64,000 bases of DNA from an uncultured Candidatus Saccharibacteria bacterium (GTDB lineage: Bacteria > Patescibacteriota > Saccharimonadia > Saccharimonadales > Saccharimonadaceae): the NCBI GenBank assembly GCA_945873065.1, contig CAMCBN010000002.1, positions 62,001-126,000 of the forward strand. The letters run 5' to 3'. Below are positions 31,163-52,592 of the stretch, piece by piece (position 1 is the stretch's first letter; every line of letters begins with the position of its first letter). Under the pieces are notes generated by a model. It worked only from the letters and a program-made list of their open reading frames with translations. It was not told the DNA's origin and made no database searches. The translations under genes were made by a program, and so were the position numbers.

Positions 31163-31435
31163 ATGGGACGATTTATAGAACAAGATCAAGCGCGCAGTCG
31201 ATTGCAGGAGCGAATCGCAGCCGATCTACGAGCGAAGGCTGTTGAGCGTAGTCATGACGAGGGTGATGGTAGCACTCCACCGACGTATGATCCTACTGAT
31301 CCATATCAATCAGAATACTTGAAGGGGACGAAGCGGACGACATCGCTCGCTGCGGTATGGTTGGTAGTGGGATTATTGTTTTTGATAGTACTTGGATTTT
31401 TTATCGCTATGACTATAGCAGGAAATGGATATTAA
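31163..31435 (+). CDS. Small membrane protein upstream of pheS
   Basis: 90 residues: an amphipathic, Arg/Glu-rich N-terminal helix, a YDPTDPYQSEYLKG linker and one C-terminal helix (about 63-85). No family recognised. A TATACT box lies 7 nt before the ATG. It precedes pheS by 8 nt and may be cotranscribed with it. The tail-anchored layout suggests a membrane-tethered accessory protein. Confidence 0.6.
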   Translation: MGRFIEQDQARSRLQERIAADLRAKAVERSHDEGDGSTPPTYDPTDPYQSEYLKGTKRTTSLAAVWLVVGLLFLIVLGFFIAMTIAGNGY

Positions 31436-31443
31436 GGATTATC

Positions 31444-32487
31444 ATGACAGAGTTTGAAGAGGTTTACCATCAGCTAAAAGAAGTGATCGCGACATCGACA
31501 ACACCGAGACAGGTGCTACGGAGTTCAGAATTGCAGAATTTATATGGGCGCATTAGACAGCTTCCGGTTGAGGATCGTAGCGTCTTTGGGCAAAAAGTAA
31601 ATGCATTGAAGCAAGAGTTAGAGCAAGCGATTGCTGTGCGCGAAGAAGAACTATCGCGAGTGGATTTGCCGCCGATTGACGTGACGGCGCCGATGGATGT
31701 TAACGCCGAGATCCCATCGCTTTTGCCGAGCGACCAAGGTTCGACTCATCCACTGATGCGCGAGATCGAGAAAATTTCCGACATTTTCAACCGAATGGGC
31801 TATGTCATTGAAGAATCGCGCGAGATTGATGATCAATTTCATATGTTTGAAAGCCTGAATTTTCCGAAAGGTCATCCGGCGCGCGACGATTACGACACAT
31901 TTATGACCGAAGAAACTGACAAGAACGGCGACCGTTTGATTGCGCCGGCGCACACCTCGACCATGCAAAATCGCGTACTCAAAAAATACCGCGACAATCT
32001 GGAAAAGGGCGAAGCGATTGCTGCTATCGTGCCAGACCGCGTCTTCCGCAACGAAGACCTTGACGCGCGGCATGAACATACGTTCTATCAAGTTGAGGGC
32101 GTGTACGTAGCGAGAGGTGTTAATGTCGGCAATCTTATCGCCACGTTGCAGGAGTTCTTGCAGGAATATTACGGCAAAAAACTTGATGTGCGCGTCAATC
32201 CGTTTTATTTCCCATTCACCGAACCGAGTTTTGAGTTTGCTCTCAGTTGTCCATTCTGCGAAGGCAAAAATTCTGACTGTAAAGTTTGTTCTGGCGAGGG
32301 CTGGGTCGAGTTGCTGGGCTGCGGATTGATCCATCCGAATGTGCTGCGCGCCGCTGACATCGACCCGAACGAATACACTGGCTTCGCTTTTGGTTGCGGT
32401 ATCGACCGCCTGGTGATGATGAAATATGGCATCGAAGACGTGCGCCATTTCGAGAGCGGAAAGTTGGACTTTTTGCGGCAGTTTTGA
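31444..32487 (+). CDS. pheS: Phenylalanyl-tRNA synthetase alpha subunit
   Basis: A 347-residue class II synthetase subunit. Motif 1 region PLMREIEKISDIF near residue 103, motif 2 around RNEDLDARHEHTFYQVEG and motif 3 GFAFGCGIDRLVMMKYG near 315. A Cys-rich insert (CPFC, CKVC) precedes WVELLGCG, as in many PheS. AAGGA precedes the ATG at 31444; longer starts run into the upstream gene. The partner pheT is at 49977, not adjacent, which is uncommon. Confidence 0.96.
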   Translation: MTEFEEVYHQLKEVIATSTTPRQVLRSSELQNLYGRIRQLPVEDRSVFGQKVNALKQELEQAIAVREEELSRVDLPPIDVTAPMDVNAEIPSLLPSDQGSTHPLMREIEKISDIFNRMGYVIEESREIDDQFHMFESLNFPKGHPARDDYDTFMTEETDKNGDRLIAPAHTSTMQNRVLKKYRDNLEKGEAIAAIVPDRVFRNEDLDARHEHTFYQVEGVYVARGVNVGNLIATLQEFLQEYYGKKLDVRVNPFYFPFTEPSFEFALSCPFCEGKNSDCKVCSGEGWVELLGCGLIHPNVLRAADIDPNEYTGFAFGCGIDRLVMMKYGIEDVRHFESGKLDFLRQF

Positions 32488-32560: not shown

Positions 32561-32713
32561 TACAGAAGCGTCCCTCTCCAAAACTTTACTCCTAATTCTG
32601 ACATCGACTGATCCAAATCAATCCCCGAGATCGACCGTTAACTTTATGCGAAGTATAGCTTAAGCCAGCAAGAGATTACTTTTATTGAGGAAAAAGTAAA
32701 GGCGATGGAGTAA
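32561..32713 (+). pseudogene. 3' remnant of a restriction-modification DNA methylase
   Basis: Reading one frame gives YRSVPLQNFTPNSDID-stop-SKSIPEIDR-stop-LYAKYSLSQQEITFIEE and a final stop at 32711. The LYAKY-SL-EEI-FIE ending is typical of the extreme C-terminus of Type II/III adenine methylases (such as DWSKSIPEIDRQLYAKYGL). The two internal stops fit TGG to TGA and CAA to TAA changes. About 50 codons are left. The rest of the 233-base gap after pheS holds nothing else I can identify. The family call is from memory of the motif. Confidence 0.6.
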
Positions 32714-32720
32714 AAGAAGA

Positions 32721-34322
32721 ATGTCTATAGATATGAATCGTGAAGACTACACACTAGTGACTGAAATGTCGGCGAAAAAGGCAAGAGGATATTTTTATAA
32801 ACCAGAGTGCTATGTCAATTTCAAATTACCATACTATGTAAATTTTAAAGAGCTACTGAAAAATGCCCGTGATATTACAAAAGGTAAAAACCAAGTAAGT
32901 GATATGTGCGAAAAGGACGAGTATGGTAGGCCGATATATCCAAGTAGACTCCCGGATGTGAACCATACTATATTAAAGAATAAAAATAGCAGTTTTGCGT
33001 GGCGTCCGCTTCAAATAATTCATCCAGTTTTATACTCTGAATTGGTGAATCATATAACATCCGAGGATAATTGGAAAAAACTCCAGGAATTCTTTCAGAA
33101 AAGAGATAAGTCAAAAGTCAAGTGTGCGAGCATGTTATTTGAATCGAATACGTCCCAGTCAGATCAAGCTATGCAGATTGTTAATTGGTGGAATAACGTA
33201 GAACAAGAAACACTACGTCGGTCGCTTGATTACAGTTTTATGCATCAGACTGATATATCGGATTGCTATGGATCAATTTACACTCACTCATTTGAATGGG
33301 CGCTCGCTGAAGATGGTCGACTTGGCGTCAAAAAGGAAAGGGAAGGGACAGGAAAATCAAGTCATAACTTAGGCACGGAAATTGACAAAAGGCTAAGAAA
33401 TATGAACCAGAACCAAACAAACGGTATACCGCAGGGTTCTGCTTTGATGGATTTCTTGGCAGAGATAATACTTGGCGGTGTTGACATTGAGCTAACAGAG
33501 AGAATCAACGAGGATGCTAGCCTTAAAGATGCGAAAGGTGCGCAAGGTGAGAATTTTAAGATAATTCGTTATCGAGATGATTATAGAATTTTGTCTACCG
33601 AGAACTATACTGGGCATCAAGTAATGAAATTGCTTAGTGATGTGCTGATGAAATGGAACTTCAAAATGAATAATAGCAAAACGTTTCAAACAGATGATAT
33701 TATATCGTCAGCAATAAAACAGGAGAAGCGTGATGAGGTATATGAAGCTCCAGCGAGATTACCGTATCAGAAAGAGGCGATGAGGATATTCTTGCTGTCA
33801 AGAAAATATCCAGGTACCGGATTGATCTCAAAACAGTTGGCGTATTATTATAATAGGATCAATAGAAAGAAGCCTTTAAAGAATATTGACTATGAAGCGA
33901 CTATCTCTATTATAGCTATGATCGCATACTATAGCCCAAATTGCATTTCGTCCGCTGCAGGTATAATCTCAAAACTTATTGAAAAATCTGAAGGTGTGGT
34001 GGATCGCAAATCTACTGTAGAAAGAATAATTGAGAAGTTCGCTGATATTCCGAATACAGAATTTGTTAATATTTGGCTGCAAAGAATTATGGATGGGGAT
34101 ACGGCGATGAGTGATGTGTTTGATAGCGAAATAACTAAGGTGATAGCTGGAAAGAAGGATGCTGGTGTGTTATGGAATTCCAAGTGGCTTACGGACGAAT
34201 ACCAAGAGCGGCTAAATGTTAAAATATCTACCCTCAAGGAAGATGTTGAGTCGGGTGAATTTAGTCCAGTTATGGAGCAAGAAGAGTTTCAGATATTCGA
34301 CGACATACCGTCTGCAGGATAG
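32721..34322 (+). CDS. Reverse transcriptase, defence-type (DRT-like)
   Basis: A 533-residue protein with the RT palm motifs: motif A TDISDCYGSIYTHSFEWAL near residue 173, motif B NGIPQGSALMDFLAEIIL near 234 and the catalytic YRDD in IIRYRDDYRIL near 276. An N-terminal region with FAWRPLQIIHPVLYSELVN and a helical C-terminal part of about 190 residues complete it. Neither group II intron maturase nor retron parts are visible. This fits the unknown-group RTs that give phage resistance (DRT), though I cannot assign a subgroup. The DNA is more AT-rich than pheS and typA. It follows the methylase remnant by 7 nt. Confidence 0.85.
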   Translation: MSIDMNREDYTLVTEMSAKKARGYFYKPECYVNFKLPYYVNFKELLKNARDITKGKNQVSDMCEKDEYGRPIYPSRLPDVNHTILKNKNSSFAWRPLQIIHPVLYSELVNHITSEDNWKKLQEFFQKRDKSKVKCASMLFESNTSQSDQAMQIVNWWNNVEQETLRRSLDYSFMHQTDISDCYGSIYTHSFEWALAEDGRLGVKKEREGTGKSSHNLGTEIDKRLRNMNQNQTNGIPQGSALMDFLAEIILGGVDIELTERINEDASLKDAKGAQGENFKIIRYRDDYRILSTENYTGHQVMKLLSDVLMKWNFKMNNSKTFQTDDIISSAIKQEKRDEVYEAPARLPYQKEAMRIFLLSRKYPGTGLISKQLAYYYNRINRKKPLKNIDYEATISIIAMIAYYSPNCISSAAGIISKLIEKSEGVVDRKSTVERIIEKFADIPNTEFVNIWLQRIMDGDTAMSDVFDSEITKVIAGKKDAGVLWNSKWLTDEYQERLNVKISTLKEDVESGEFSPVMEQEEFQIFDDIPSAG

Positions 34323-34475: not shown

Positions 34476-34775
34476 TTACTTTTGCGGCGCAGAATGTGTG
34501 CTAAGATACTCAATTCTACTAGTGATTTGTATATATAATTTATCAATAATCTGACGATCTGGACGCTCTAAACCTCGTTCGATCGCTATATAGTCCTGGT
34601 CAAAATAATCAAACATATCGTCCCAAACAGTCCTCTTGTCGTCTACCTCGAAGACTCGAGCTAGCGAGAAACAGATACGGCTTAACGATTCTAAGACTCC
34701 AGCGTCGTCTGGCATGTCATAATACAAATCAATAATTTCGCGAGCAGTTATATATTCATCTCGTTGTTTATTCAT
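34476..34775 (-). CDS. Small unknown acidic protein
   Basis: A minus-strand frame for 99 residues from ATG 34775 (MNKQRDEYITAREIIDLYY start, many Asp/Glu). It can be extended to 151 residues at 34931, but that added part is Arg/Ser-rich and not convincing. All-helical appearance, no recognisable motif. It converges with the RT gene, so it could belong to the RT locus or be a separate remnant of the island. No ribosome site is clear. Confidence 0.45.
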   Translation of the reverse strand: MNKQRDEYITAREIIDLYYDMPDDAGVLESLSRICFSLARVFEVDDKRTVWDDMFDYFDQDYIAIERGLERPDRQIIDKLYIQITSRIEYLSTHSAPQK

Positions 34776-34998
34776 ATATTCAAGTCTATCAAAGTTAGTG
34801 GACAGTTTATAGACATGTCCAGGTCTACAGTCATCTACAGATGACGATTCGGATGCTTTCTCCTGAGATTCTGATCTGTGGAGTGCATCGACCCCAGCTC
34901 GACACCGTCGATGGAGCCGTTGGTGTCCCAAGAAACATGGGTGTGCAGCTATGTGACATCCTGTGTGCGACGAGCTAGAATAAACACAAGGGGGATAT

Positions 34999-35409
34999 AT
35001 GAAAGATACATCACTACGTAAGCAACTGGAAGCCTACGCTAAAAAGAAGTATGCGGTGGAGGCTGAGCAGTTACCGTTTAATCGCGAAGACTATGCCATA
35101 TTGAGACATCAAGATAGTGGCAAGTGGTTCGCTGTGTTTATCGTAAAATCGCGCCAGCAATTGGGATTGGACGGGAAGGGTGATGCTGAAATTGCGAGCC
35201 TCAAGATACGTGATTCATCATTGGTCGACATGTTGCTGCAGCAGCCTGGTTATCTTAGGAGCTATCCGAGTTCTGGGTGGGGTTAGGTTTCTGTCGCGTT
35301 GGACGGAACCGTGCCCTTTGAGGACATCTGCCGATGGATGGATGAGAGCTATAGTGTGACGATATCAAAGACGAAAAATAAGAAAGTCCCGCTGGTGAAG
35401 AGGAATTAG
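34999..35409 (+). pseudogene. MmcQ/YjbR-family gene with in-frame amber codon
   Basis: The frame starts behind AAGGGGGA and matches YjbR (REDYAILRHQDSGKWFAVF, LLQQPGYLRSYPSSGW), then has TAG at 35284. The same frame continues without shift into VSVALDGTVPFEDICRWMDE, the normal C-terminal part of the family, to TAG at 35407. The full 135 codons would have the family length. It is thus a recent nonsense pseudogene, or needs amber readthrough. YjbR proteins have a CyaY-like fold and possible DNA binding; function is unsettled. Confidence 0.78.
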
Positions 35410-35538: not shown

Positions 35539-35625
35539 GCGGATGTGGCGGAATTGGTAGACGCGCTAGCTTCAGGTGCTAGTGTACGCAAGTACGTGAA
35601 GGTTCAAGTCCTTTCATCCGCACCA
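35539..35625 (+). tRNA. tRNA-Leu (anticodon CAG)
   Basis: Long-variable-arm cloverleaf: acceptor GCGGATG/CATCCGC, anticodon loop TTCAGGT giving CAG, variable arm GTACGCAAGTAC, T-loop TTCAAGT, encoded CCA. TATAAT at about 35520 is its promoter. It borders the recombinase fragment and may have served as an attachment site. Confidence 0.95.
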
Positions 35626-35689
35626 CGACTCCCCTATACGAACCCGCACCAAGCGGACTCGGCCCGGGAGCAGTCGCAGCCAACGAAGT

Positions 35690-35717
35690 GCGCTCACCCG
35701 TCAGGGTGGGCGCTTTT
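35690..35717 (+). terminator. Intrinsic terminator of tRNA-Leu(CAG)
   Basis: GCGCTCACCC/GGGTGGGCGC stem (one wobble) with a GTCA loop and TTTT. Confidence 0.85.
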
Positions 35718-35721
35718 CGTT

Positions 35722-36180
35722 GTGGGGCTAGTACATCGGTGTGGTCGTCTGGGTCTGGTTGGTGGGTGTCACCGTTGCTCTTCAGACTGGACTGCGGTCC
35801 TGCTTGACTGTGGCATGCAGTCCACTGCAGCCTGGAGCTGGTCAACTGGTCGAAGGGGAAGTTGAGGCTAGCGGCAGCACTGGTGGTGCTGGTGTGGTCG
35901 TGGACGATGACCGGCGCCACGGACGGTACCGACTCCTCAGACCTCTCCACGTTCTCCTCACTCTCACTCTCCACACCCTTCACCTTCTCGTCACTCATTG
36001 GCCCGCTCTTCGGTTCGCCCGCCATGATGACTCGCCCGTGCTCGTCGATCTCCGGGTTGACCAGTACCTTCTCGAAGAAAACCTGGTTGAGCTGCTTCTT
36101 GAGGTGGTCTGGCGCCGCCTGGTACAGGCGGTGGCAGTCCTCGAGGAGGTCCAAGCTTTGGCATAAAACGCCCCATGATA
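35722..36180 (-). pseudogene. C-terminal fragment of a GC-rich serine recombinase
   Basis: On the minus strand the frame reads AFYAKALDLLEDCHRLYQ, then APDHLKKQLNQVFFEKVLV and DEHGRVIMAGEP, which is the usual C-terminal region of large serine recombinases/integrases. A stop (TAA) at 36181-36183 cuts it off upstream; catalytic and DNA-binding domains are missing. The remaining part is Ser/Glu/Pro-rich and runs into the tRNA-Leu terminator. Codons nearly all end in G or C, unlike all neighbours, which points to a high-GC donor such as an actinobacterium. Confidence 0.75.
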
Positions 36181-49732: not shown

Positions 49733-49963
49733 CTAATTCATGTCGGAAGTAAAGGCAAAATACAAAGCTATTGATGAAGAAATAATCGGAATTGGAGCGA
49801 TGAAATAATCAATGCTTCGATTCATGATTTTTGCTTGTGGAACAAAATGTAACCCAATGACCAGCGTTACGATAGGTAGAATGAATTTTCTTTGATGAAT
49901 TATGAGTAAAATTATGATGAGTATCCAGATGCTTGTGTAGGTAATCTCACCTATAAAATGCTA
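49733..49963 (-). pseudogene. Decayed membrane-protein remnant
   Basis: The 380-base gap before pheT holds no intact gene. On the minus strand one open frame without a start reads as helices (ITYTSIWILIIILLII, then FILPIVTLVIGLHFVP, then a third), ending at a TAG at 49733; similar hydrophobic pieces continue in shifted frames towards 49640. This looks like a broken three-helix protein. I do not know the family. A 22-codon frame at 49740 on the plus strand is probably its shadow. Confidence 0.45.
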
Positions 49964-49976
49964 CAATATAACTAGT

Positions 49977-52592
49977 ATGAAAGTAAATCTAAAGACAATT
50001 GAAAAATTAGCAGGCTTTGAGCTGCCGAGTATTGACGAGCTGGCGGAGCGAGTGAATGCGCAACTTGGCGGCATCGAGGAAATTATTGATCTGGGTGCGA
50101 AGTATGGCGGTGCGCGAATTGTGCGGGTAGTGGAATGTATCAAGCATCCTGATGCTGACCGTTTGAGTGTGACGAAAATTGATGATGGCGGTGCGGCTGC
50201 CGATGTGCCGCGCGACGAGAATGGCTTGGTGCAAGTGGTGTGCGGTGCGCCAAACGTGCATGCGGATATGTGGGCGGTATGGCTGCCGCCAAAGAGCACG
50301 GTGCCGGCTAGCTTCGACGACGATGAGCCGTTTGTGCTGAGCGCGCGTCCACTTCGTGGCGTGTTGAGCCAGGGTATGCTGGCGGCGGGCGACGAGCTGG
50401 GGTTGAATGACGATCACGATGGGATTATCGAAATTACTGAGCGCGACGTGCCGAGCGGCGTGGAGCTGAAACCAGGTGCACGTTTTGCCGAAGTGTTTGG
50501 GCTGGACGGACATGTTCTTGACATTGAAAATAAGATGTTCACGCATCGGCCGGATTGTTTCGGGCAGTTGGGTGTGGCGCGCGAAATTGCGGGGATTTTT
50601 GGGCGGAAATTTACCAGTCCGGATTGGTATAAAGTCGCGCAAGAGTTTGCACCGGGCGATAGTTCTTTGGAGTTGGTGGTCAAAAATGAAGCGCCAGACA
50701 AGGTGCCGCGGTTAATGGCGGTAGCGATCAAAAATGTGACGGTTCAGCCTAGTCCGCTGTGGTTGCAGTGCGAGTTAGTGGCGATGGGCGGCAAACCGAT
50801 CAATAACATTGTGGATGCGACGAATTACATGATGTTTATGACAGCGCAGCCAACGCATGCCTATGATTATGATAAACTGCGCGGCCATGCACTTGGCGCG
50901 CGGTTGGCGCAGTCGGGCGAGACGGTGACGTTGCTCAACGGTAAGACGTACGAACTCGACACGGATGATATCGTCATCGCTGATGGTGAAGGTGTGATTG
51001 GCCTAGCGGGCATTATGGGCGGCGGTAATTCGGAAGTATCGAACGAGACGAAGAATATCGTACTGGAATGCGCCAATTTTGATATGTATGCCTTGCGCAA
51101 AACTGCCATGCGCCACGGGATTTTTACCGATGCATTGACGCGATTTAATAAAGGGCAATCACCGCTGCAAAATGCACCTGTATTGAGACAGCTGATGGGT
51201 ATGGTCGGCGGCGAGCAGGCGAGTGAGGTGTTTGATCGGTGCGACGACAGCATCTTTGTCAGAAAGCCAATTTGCGGTAAGGCCATCACGCCAACATTTA
51301 TATTTGAGCGGTTAGGTATGAGGCCTGATAATGCTGAAATTAAAAGGCTATTGGAAAACGTTGAAATGAAGGTAGAGGAGCATACTCTCTACAGCAATGA
51401 TTCCATGGAAAAACCAGATTTTGGCGATATTCGTGAGGGACATGACATTAACGAGGAGGAAGATGCGCTCTACATTAAGCCACCATTTTGGCGCACCGAC
51501 ATTGACGAGCCGGAAGACATTGTCGAAGAAGTTGGGCGGCTGTACGGCTTCGATAAATTACCGCGCGAATTACCGCGCCGCTCTGCTAAGCCGGCGCCAA
51601 AAAATTCACGCCGCGAAGTCAAGCGAAAAATCCGCCAAAGTTTATCAAAAGCCGGCGCCAACGAAGTTCTGACATATAGCTTCGTGCACGAAAATATTTT
51701 GAAAAAAGCTGAGCAAGACGTCGGTCAAGCGTTTAAACTATCCAACGCGCTGAGTCCAGATTTGCAATATTATCGCCTAACAGTGTTGCCGAGTTTGCTC
51801 GATAAAGTCCATACCAATATCAAGGCAGGGCATGACGAATTTGCCTTGTTTGAAATGGGCAAAGGTCACGATAAGCAACTGCCATCGAGTGATGGCGAAA
51901 AATTGCCAGGCGAAAATCATTTTACCGACCTCGTATATGCTGCTAAAAAACCAGGTAAGGGCGCGCCGTTTTATAGAGTACGCCGCATAGTTGAACAACT
52001 CGGCCGCGACTTTGGTACTAAATTTTTGTTTACTCCGATTAACGAGAAATCAGCAGGTGTTTTGAACAGTTCATTCCACGCTAGTATTGTTGCGCCGTTT
52101 GACTCTGAGCGTTCGGCAGTGGTGATGACACTGGATAGAAAATGCATCGGGGTGGTTGGCGAACTCAAACAATCAGTTATCAAGAATTTCAAATTGCCTA
52201 GCTATGTCGCAGCGGCGACACTAGAAACTGCAATGTTTGAAGAAATACTTGCTGTTGGTTATCGATCGTACCATCCACTAAGTCGCTATCCATCGACTAG
52301 TCGGGATATAACGTTCAAAACAGATGCAGATATATCGTTTGGCGTTATATCTGCCGAGGTTGATAGGATAGCAGGGGAAATCACGCGTCAGGATGGATAT
52401 TCTAGTGTCCATATTTCTATAGCTCCACGCGGAGTATATCGATCGACACCGGACGATCCTCAAAAATCAACTACATTTCGTGTAACATTCACGGACTACG
52501 CACAGACGTTAAATAGTAATGAAATATCCTCCATCGTGGAGAACTGGTTTGTAAAAGGTTTGCAGGAGTACTGTGGGGCTGAGCTCGTATAA
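49977..52592 (+). CDS. pheT: Phenylalanyl-tRNA synthetase beta subunit
   Basis: 871 residues, longer than the usual 790-800. The tRNA-binding (EMAP-like) domain is at about 45-160 (ARIVRVVECIKHPDADRLSV, QVVCGAPNVH), then B3/B4 (editing), B5 (KPPFWRTDIDEPEDIVEEVG region), the catalytic-like core and the C-terminal anticodon-binding fold (PLSRYPSTSRDITFKTD). It pairs with PheS (31444), 17 kb away. TACAAT (49962-49967) is 9 nt upstream of the ATG, with no ribosome site. Confidence 0.97.
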   Translation: MKVNLKTIEKLAGFELPSIDELAERVNAQLGGIEEIIDLGAKYGGARIVRVVECIKHPDADRLSVTKIDDGGAAADVPRDENGLVQVVCGAPNVHADMWAVWLPPKSTVPASFDDDEPFVLSARPLRGVLSQGMLAAGDELGLNDDHDGIIEITERDVPSGVELKPGARFAEVFGLDGHVLDIENKMFTHRPDCFGQLGVAREIAGIFGRKFTSPDWYKVAQEFAPGDSSLELVVKNEAPDKVPRLMAVAIKNVTVQPSPLWLQCELVAMGGKPINNIVDATNYMMFMTAQPTHAYDYDKLRGHALGARLAQSGETVTLLNGKTYELDTDDIVIADGEGVIGLAGIMGGGNSEVSNETKNIVLECANFDMYALRKTAMRHGIFTDALTRFNKGQSPLQNAPVLRQLMGMVGGEQASEVFDRCDDSIFVRKPICGKAITPTFIFERLGMRPDNAEIKRLLENVEMKVEEHTLYSNDSMEKPDFGDIREGHDINEEEDALYIKPPFWRTDIDEPEDIVEEVGRLYGFDKLPRELPRRSAKPAPKNSRREVKRKIRQSLSKAGANEVLTYSFVHENILKKAEQDVGQAFKLSNALSPDLQYYRLTVLPSLLDKVHTNIKAGHDEFALFEMGKGHDKQLPSSDGEKLPGENHFTDLVYAAKKPGKGAPFYRVRRIVEQLGRDFGTKFLFTPINEKSAGVLNSSFHASIVAPFDSERSAVVMTLDRKCIGVVGELKQSVIKNFKLPSYVAAATLETAMFEEILAVGYRSYHPLSRYPSTSRDITFKTDADISFGVISAEVDRIAGEITRQDGYSSVHISIAPRGVYRSTPDDPQKSTTFRVTFTDYAQTLNSNEISSIVENWFVKGLQEYCGAELV

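Follow-up and report, generated by a model that had tools for sequence, protein, structure and literature searches.

The gene under study lies on the forward strand of the window, which is the whole stretch of 64,000 nucleotides of Candidatus Saccharibacteria DNA that was analysed, and runs from an ATG start to a TAG stop through 533 codons with zero internal stops. The encoded reverse transcriptase (RT) carries the motifs DISDCYGSIYTHS, GIPQGS and YRDD, and the gene has a GC content of 38.3% against 46.1% in the window. An intact RT reading frame with these motifs and its AT-richness had been described in the initial annotation and are borne out, as is the broken state of the neighbours: the methylase tail, the TAG-interrupted YjbR gene and the recombinase fragment are all real. 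The features of the locus are as follows.

32567–32713, forward strand: remnant of an Eco57I-type restriction-modification methylase, comprising its final 48 codons and interrupted by two in-frame stops (alignments).
32707–32710, forward strand: GGAG, a possible ribosome-binding site 10 nt 5′ of the ATG, within the end of the methylase remnant (inferred from sequence).
32721–34322, forward strand: Abi-P2 family polymerase, 533 amino acids (PADLOC AbiP2 profile, PDB entry 7r08, AlphaFold, Foldseek).
32835–32837, forward strand: codon of Tyr39, the equivalent of the priming Tyr61 of Abi-P2 (gap-free local alignment to 7r08).
33252–33254, forward strand: codon of the catalytic Asp178 (motif A, TDISDCYGSIYTHS; invariant in 37 homologues).
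33576–33581, forward strand: codons of the catalytic Asp286-Asp287 (YRDD; invariant in 37 homologues).
34476–34931, reverse strand: hypothetical ORF downstream of the RT, assigned to no family by profile searches.
34999–35406, forward strand: YjbR-family gene with an in-frame TAG at 35284–35286, probably unrelated to the RT (PF04237 on read-through).
About 35626–36154, reverse strand: C-terminal piece of a serine recombinase, adjacent to a tRNA-Leu gene and probably unrelated to the RT (same-genome copy).

The last 23 residues of the methylase are 87% identical to a Lactococcus plasmid protein, the closest plasmid match in the collection searched, and a longer alignment (2.7e-22) places the stops at Trp and Gln positions of the homologue. 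The YjbR read-through matches PF04237 with 35.8 bits (1.3e-8), and the recombinase fragment shares 91% identity with the corresponding section of a long ORF at G000:C6 in the same genome. The RT and the recombinase fragment as one element is not supported, the fragment lying on the far side of the tRNA-Leu gene. The genome has two copies of the recombinase tail with a tRNA-Leu next to it, at L184 6913–8604 (C6) and at 35539–36154 of the window; in the C6 copy, at tRNA-Leu(tag), the frame stays open over 580 codons and gives 563 amino acids when read from a GTG, and the window copy, at tRNA-Leu(cag), is a fragment. Recombinase tails at two tRNA-Leu genes suggest repeated integration at tRNA-Leu. 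Parts of a Gabija system are also found in this genome (L184 11388–13293; G000:C6, about 87.4–89.3 kb), namely one ORF that matches GajA over its C-terminal half (1.7e-102, profile positions 286–534 of 536) and another that matches GajB over its N-terminal half (2.6e-122, profile positions 3–265 of 565); from its sequence the pair looks like a decayed Gabija system. On the other side of the RT, pheS (31357–32487) and pheT (49941–52589) are separated by approximately 17 kb in the window, the typA block coming after pheS. In genomes G006 and G003 pheT lies close behind pheS, and in G010 the two are separated by a 972-residue ORF that belongs to no family known to Pfam or PADLOC (L170 7333–10251). 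Since the pheS/pheT spacing differs among the window and these three genomes, the stretch following pheS is variable; in the comparison for an empty insertion site, the gene order in G010, G006 and G003 differs from that of the window.

Several lines of evidence place the RT in one family. The PADLOC AbiP2 profile matches residues 11–528 over profile positions 5–485 of 489 with 509.8 bits, about three times the score of the next-best RT class in the PADLOC profiles (164.3 bits), and at 1.9e-153 its resemblance to a defence RT can by no means be put down to chance. The best sequence match in the PDB is 7r08, the only solved structure of an Abi-P2 (2.8e-63, residues 13–493), and the only Pfam match is a weakly scoring RVT_1. 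An AlphaFold model computed with 37 homologues as input has a mean pLDDT of 92.4 and a pTM of 0.92, and Foldseek places all six chains of 7r08 first, with TM scores of 0.78–0.79 by query and 0.85–0.87 by target. The whole predicted chain superposes on 7r08, comprising the RT palm and fingers followed by the unique helical domain, with no thumb. The other class 1 defence RTs, DRT4 (UG15), DRT6, AbiK and AbiA, have the RT core and a helical domain in common with it, and AbiK is also protein-primed and untemplated like Abi-P2; in both profile and fold comparisons they score clearly lower than Abi-P2 (TM 0.43–0.57 by query), DRT4 reaching 0.57/0.61, DRT6 0.57 by query and AbiK and AbiA 0.43–0.50 by query. 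DRT9 and the group II RTs score approximately 0.3, and for the predicted model every fold other than 7r08 is clearly the worse match.

The residues on which activity would depend are in place. Tyr39, Asp178, Asp286 and Asp287 are invariant across 37 sequences from many phyla; the mutated catalytic residues in relatives that the initial annotation had named as a possible counter-indication did not occur in these homologues. The local alignment with 7r08 is gap-free at Tyr61, which corresponds to Tyr39 of the window protein. In Abi-P2 it is Tyr61 that starts DNA synthesis, the Y61F variant showing no DNA polymerization, and Y46F polymerizes at wild-type levels (PMC9508834). By its motif, Asp178 would take the position of Asp163 of AbiK (PMC9508834). 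Of the 70 columns with a conservation of 97% or more among the other 36 sequences, the window RT retains 67; the near-invariant residues altered, P139L, F291L and N365G, include none that is catalytic, and are more such departures than most of the other sequences show.

The features of the Abi-P2 family found in the window protein are therefore a full-length best profile match, the fold, the Asp triad and the priming Tyr, and the gene very probably encodes an Abi-P2 abortive-infection polymerase. The protein is a full-length, ordinary Abi-P2, real but not new in kind. Of the initial reading as an unclassified defence RT (DRT), the defence type stands, and the lack of a class gives way to Abi-P2, as specified by the profile, the PDB match and the fold. 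With the Abi-P2 of Escherichia coli P2-like prophages (7r08; P2-EC30/P2-EC58; PMC9508834) the window protein shares full-length homology, fold, triad, priming Tyr and organization as a single gene. The two differ in identity, which is approximately 30%, and in setting: the window gene, known here from sequence, stands beside a restriction-modification (R-M) remnant in a 0.85 Mb genome, whereas that of E. coli stands in a P2 prophage.

A scan of genome contigs with one motif pattern gave 332 encoding stretches in many phyla; the analysis continued with the best 80. In the tree, built by a quick method and containing several long outgroup branches, yet with good support for both joins of the window clade, the window RT groups with L037, L038 and L039 (support 100), and a further copy from the same family, G519, joins outside these four (support 95). 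The clade is nested among Abi-P2s of many phyla. L037 (the G616:C5 locus) belongs to the window's own family and L038 to a Candidatus Saccharibacteria metagenome-assembled genome; identities of the window RT to L037, L038 and L039 are 47–51%, and with the nearest homologue at approximately 51% the divergence is too great for dN/dS. Matches at 1e-20 were obtained in ten of 394 family genomes, nine of them good Abi-P2s; the tenth, in G068 (2.5e-47), is partial, groups with other RT classes and was left out. Abi-P2 is thus sporadic in the family, as expected for horizontally moved defence genes. Carriage of the window-type Abi-P2 by viruses was rejected, the Abi-P2s of the viral contigs all being distant (29–38%), with none near the window RT. 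No mention of Abi-P2 in Saccharibacteria was found in the literature searched. Other copies in the family are divergent: L033, L034, L011 and L035 are without the SIYTHS stretch, and their counterpart of GIPQGS is GLPQSG or GLPQGS, with YRDD or FRDD kept. In G470, the ORF directly upstream of Abi-P2 (L009 3003–3785) matches PADLOC PDC-S32, a candidate defence family (3.8e-13). In Escherichia phage pro147 (L006 2251–5536) an ORF on the other strand next to Abi-P2 is annotated as a second reverse transcriptase; retron and Abi-P2 as neighbours are mentioned in the literature (PMC8934634).

The same tree bears on the idea of a housekeeping or mobile-element RT of the group II intron, retron or diversity-generating retroelement (DGR) kind, which we regard as scarcely conceivable. 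The weak RVT_1 and group II profile scores are what can be cited for it, but the group II model, whose curated cut-off is 300 bits, gives 37 bits, in agreement with the absence of a maturase noted initially, and no intron, msr/msd or variable-repeat parts were seen near the gene. The placement among group II intron or DGR RTs that would have spoken for such an element did not occur: tree and fold both put the window RT in Abi-P2, and together with the AbiP2 profile they refute this identity.

It is also very improbable that the protein is an RNA-templated DRT of the DRT2/DRT9 kind, which would use a non-coding RNA encoded nearby as the template for an effector DNA or gene. The RT core of DRT2 and DRT9 is homologous to that of the window RT, and some DRTs are known from the literature to use a flanking RNA, but the DRT9 and DRT2 structures fit poorly (TM approximately 0.3) and the Drt2 profile gives 22 bits against a cut-off of 390. 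The search for a conserved flanking RNA, proposed with the initial annotation, indicated none: an Rfam scan near the gene gave no match, the flanks of the gene fold no better than shuffled sequences (z of −0.12, 0.00 and 0.49) and comparison of the window with its three closest kin revealed no long conserved flank, the longest matches being 18–31 nt. In close kin, coding genes lie directly upstream and downstream, which leaves little room for an RNA. Nor is a partner RNA expected for an Abi-P2, since these are stand-alone, untemplated and protein-primed enzymes.

The surroundings of the close kin point to restriction-modification. In L038 the order is hsdM, a small ORF, hsdS, Abi-P2 and hsdR, with the RT overlapping hsdS, and in L039 it is hsdS, Abi-P2 and hsdR; in both the ends of the RT overlap or nearly touch the neighbouring hsd genes. 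L038 and L039 are thus set within type I R-M operons, whereas the Abi-P2 of L037 lies beside a serine recombinase and that of the window beside a dead Eco57I-type methylase. Among the best 80 of the 332 loci, a Methylase_S (HsdS) domain was found in 15 of 54 close upstream same-strand ORFs, and the 49 downstream ORFs scanned included seven HsdR and two MmeI-type enzymes; similarity to the window RT was the criterion by which these 80 loci were picked, so their fractions cannot be read as rates for the whole family. A connection of Abi RTs with R-M is not new, one AbiK that apparently belongs to an R-M system having been reported (PMC8934634). With a methylase tail directly before the RT and kin in R-M operons, the simplest history is that of an R-M/Abi-P2 cassette minus its R-M part, which suggests that the RT arrived as the second gene of an R-M cassette whose methylase has since been reduced to a tail with two stops. 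A bolder proposal, which we consider doubtful, is that Abi-P2 is a regular accessory of R-M operons, serving as a suicidal fallback upon failure of restriction, and that here it has outlived its R-M partner and acts alone.

Whether the RT is still maintained is a separate matter. Two stops in 48 methylase codons against none in 533 RT codons argue for current selection, which on the sequence is plausible, and the RT and the methylase remnant may have different histories. The gene could alternatively be a recently arrived and already inactive relic in which stops have not yet gathered. It sits in a decayed stretch, has three conserved residues changed, is found in a genus where zero of the 12 other genomes searched carry Abi-P2, and shares its genome with a GajA/GajB pair that looks truncated; moreover, Abi-P2 copies do decay in this family, as the internal TAG of L031 shows. 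Such a relic is nevertheless unlikely, as the frame is open and the catalytic and priming residues are intact beside a methylase tail that is not, and the changed residues are not catalytic.

The working of the window Abi-P2 is modelled here by analogy with Abi-P2 and AbiK; family membership, fold and the intact catalytic and priming residues come from the present analysis, and the trimer, the activity, the untemplated product and phage resistance are carried over from the Abi-P2 family. The protein would assemble as a trimer, in which the hydroxyl of Tyr39 would take the first nucleotide on the same protein and the RT-fold site (Asp178, Asp286 and Asp287) would extend a single DNA strand in an untemplated manner, the C-terminal helical domain filling the position that a template strand would hold. 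Once set off by a phage, this synthesis would halt phage multiplication, with probable loss of the infected cell. The Abi-P2 of P2-EC30 confers resistance to T5 (PMC9508834).

The picture of the Abi-P2 family is unchanged by the window gene, which adds to it a well-supported clade from small-genome bacteria and an example of an Abi-P2 that has apparently outlived its restriction partner. A defence gene that is suicidal, judging from its family, is thereby seen to be retained in a genome of only 0.85 Mb.
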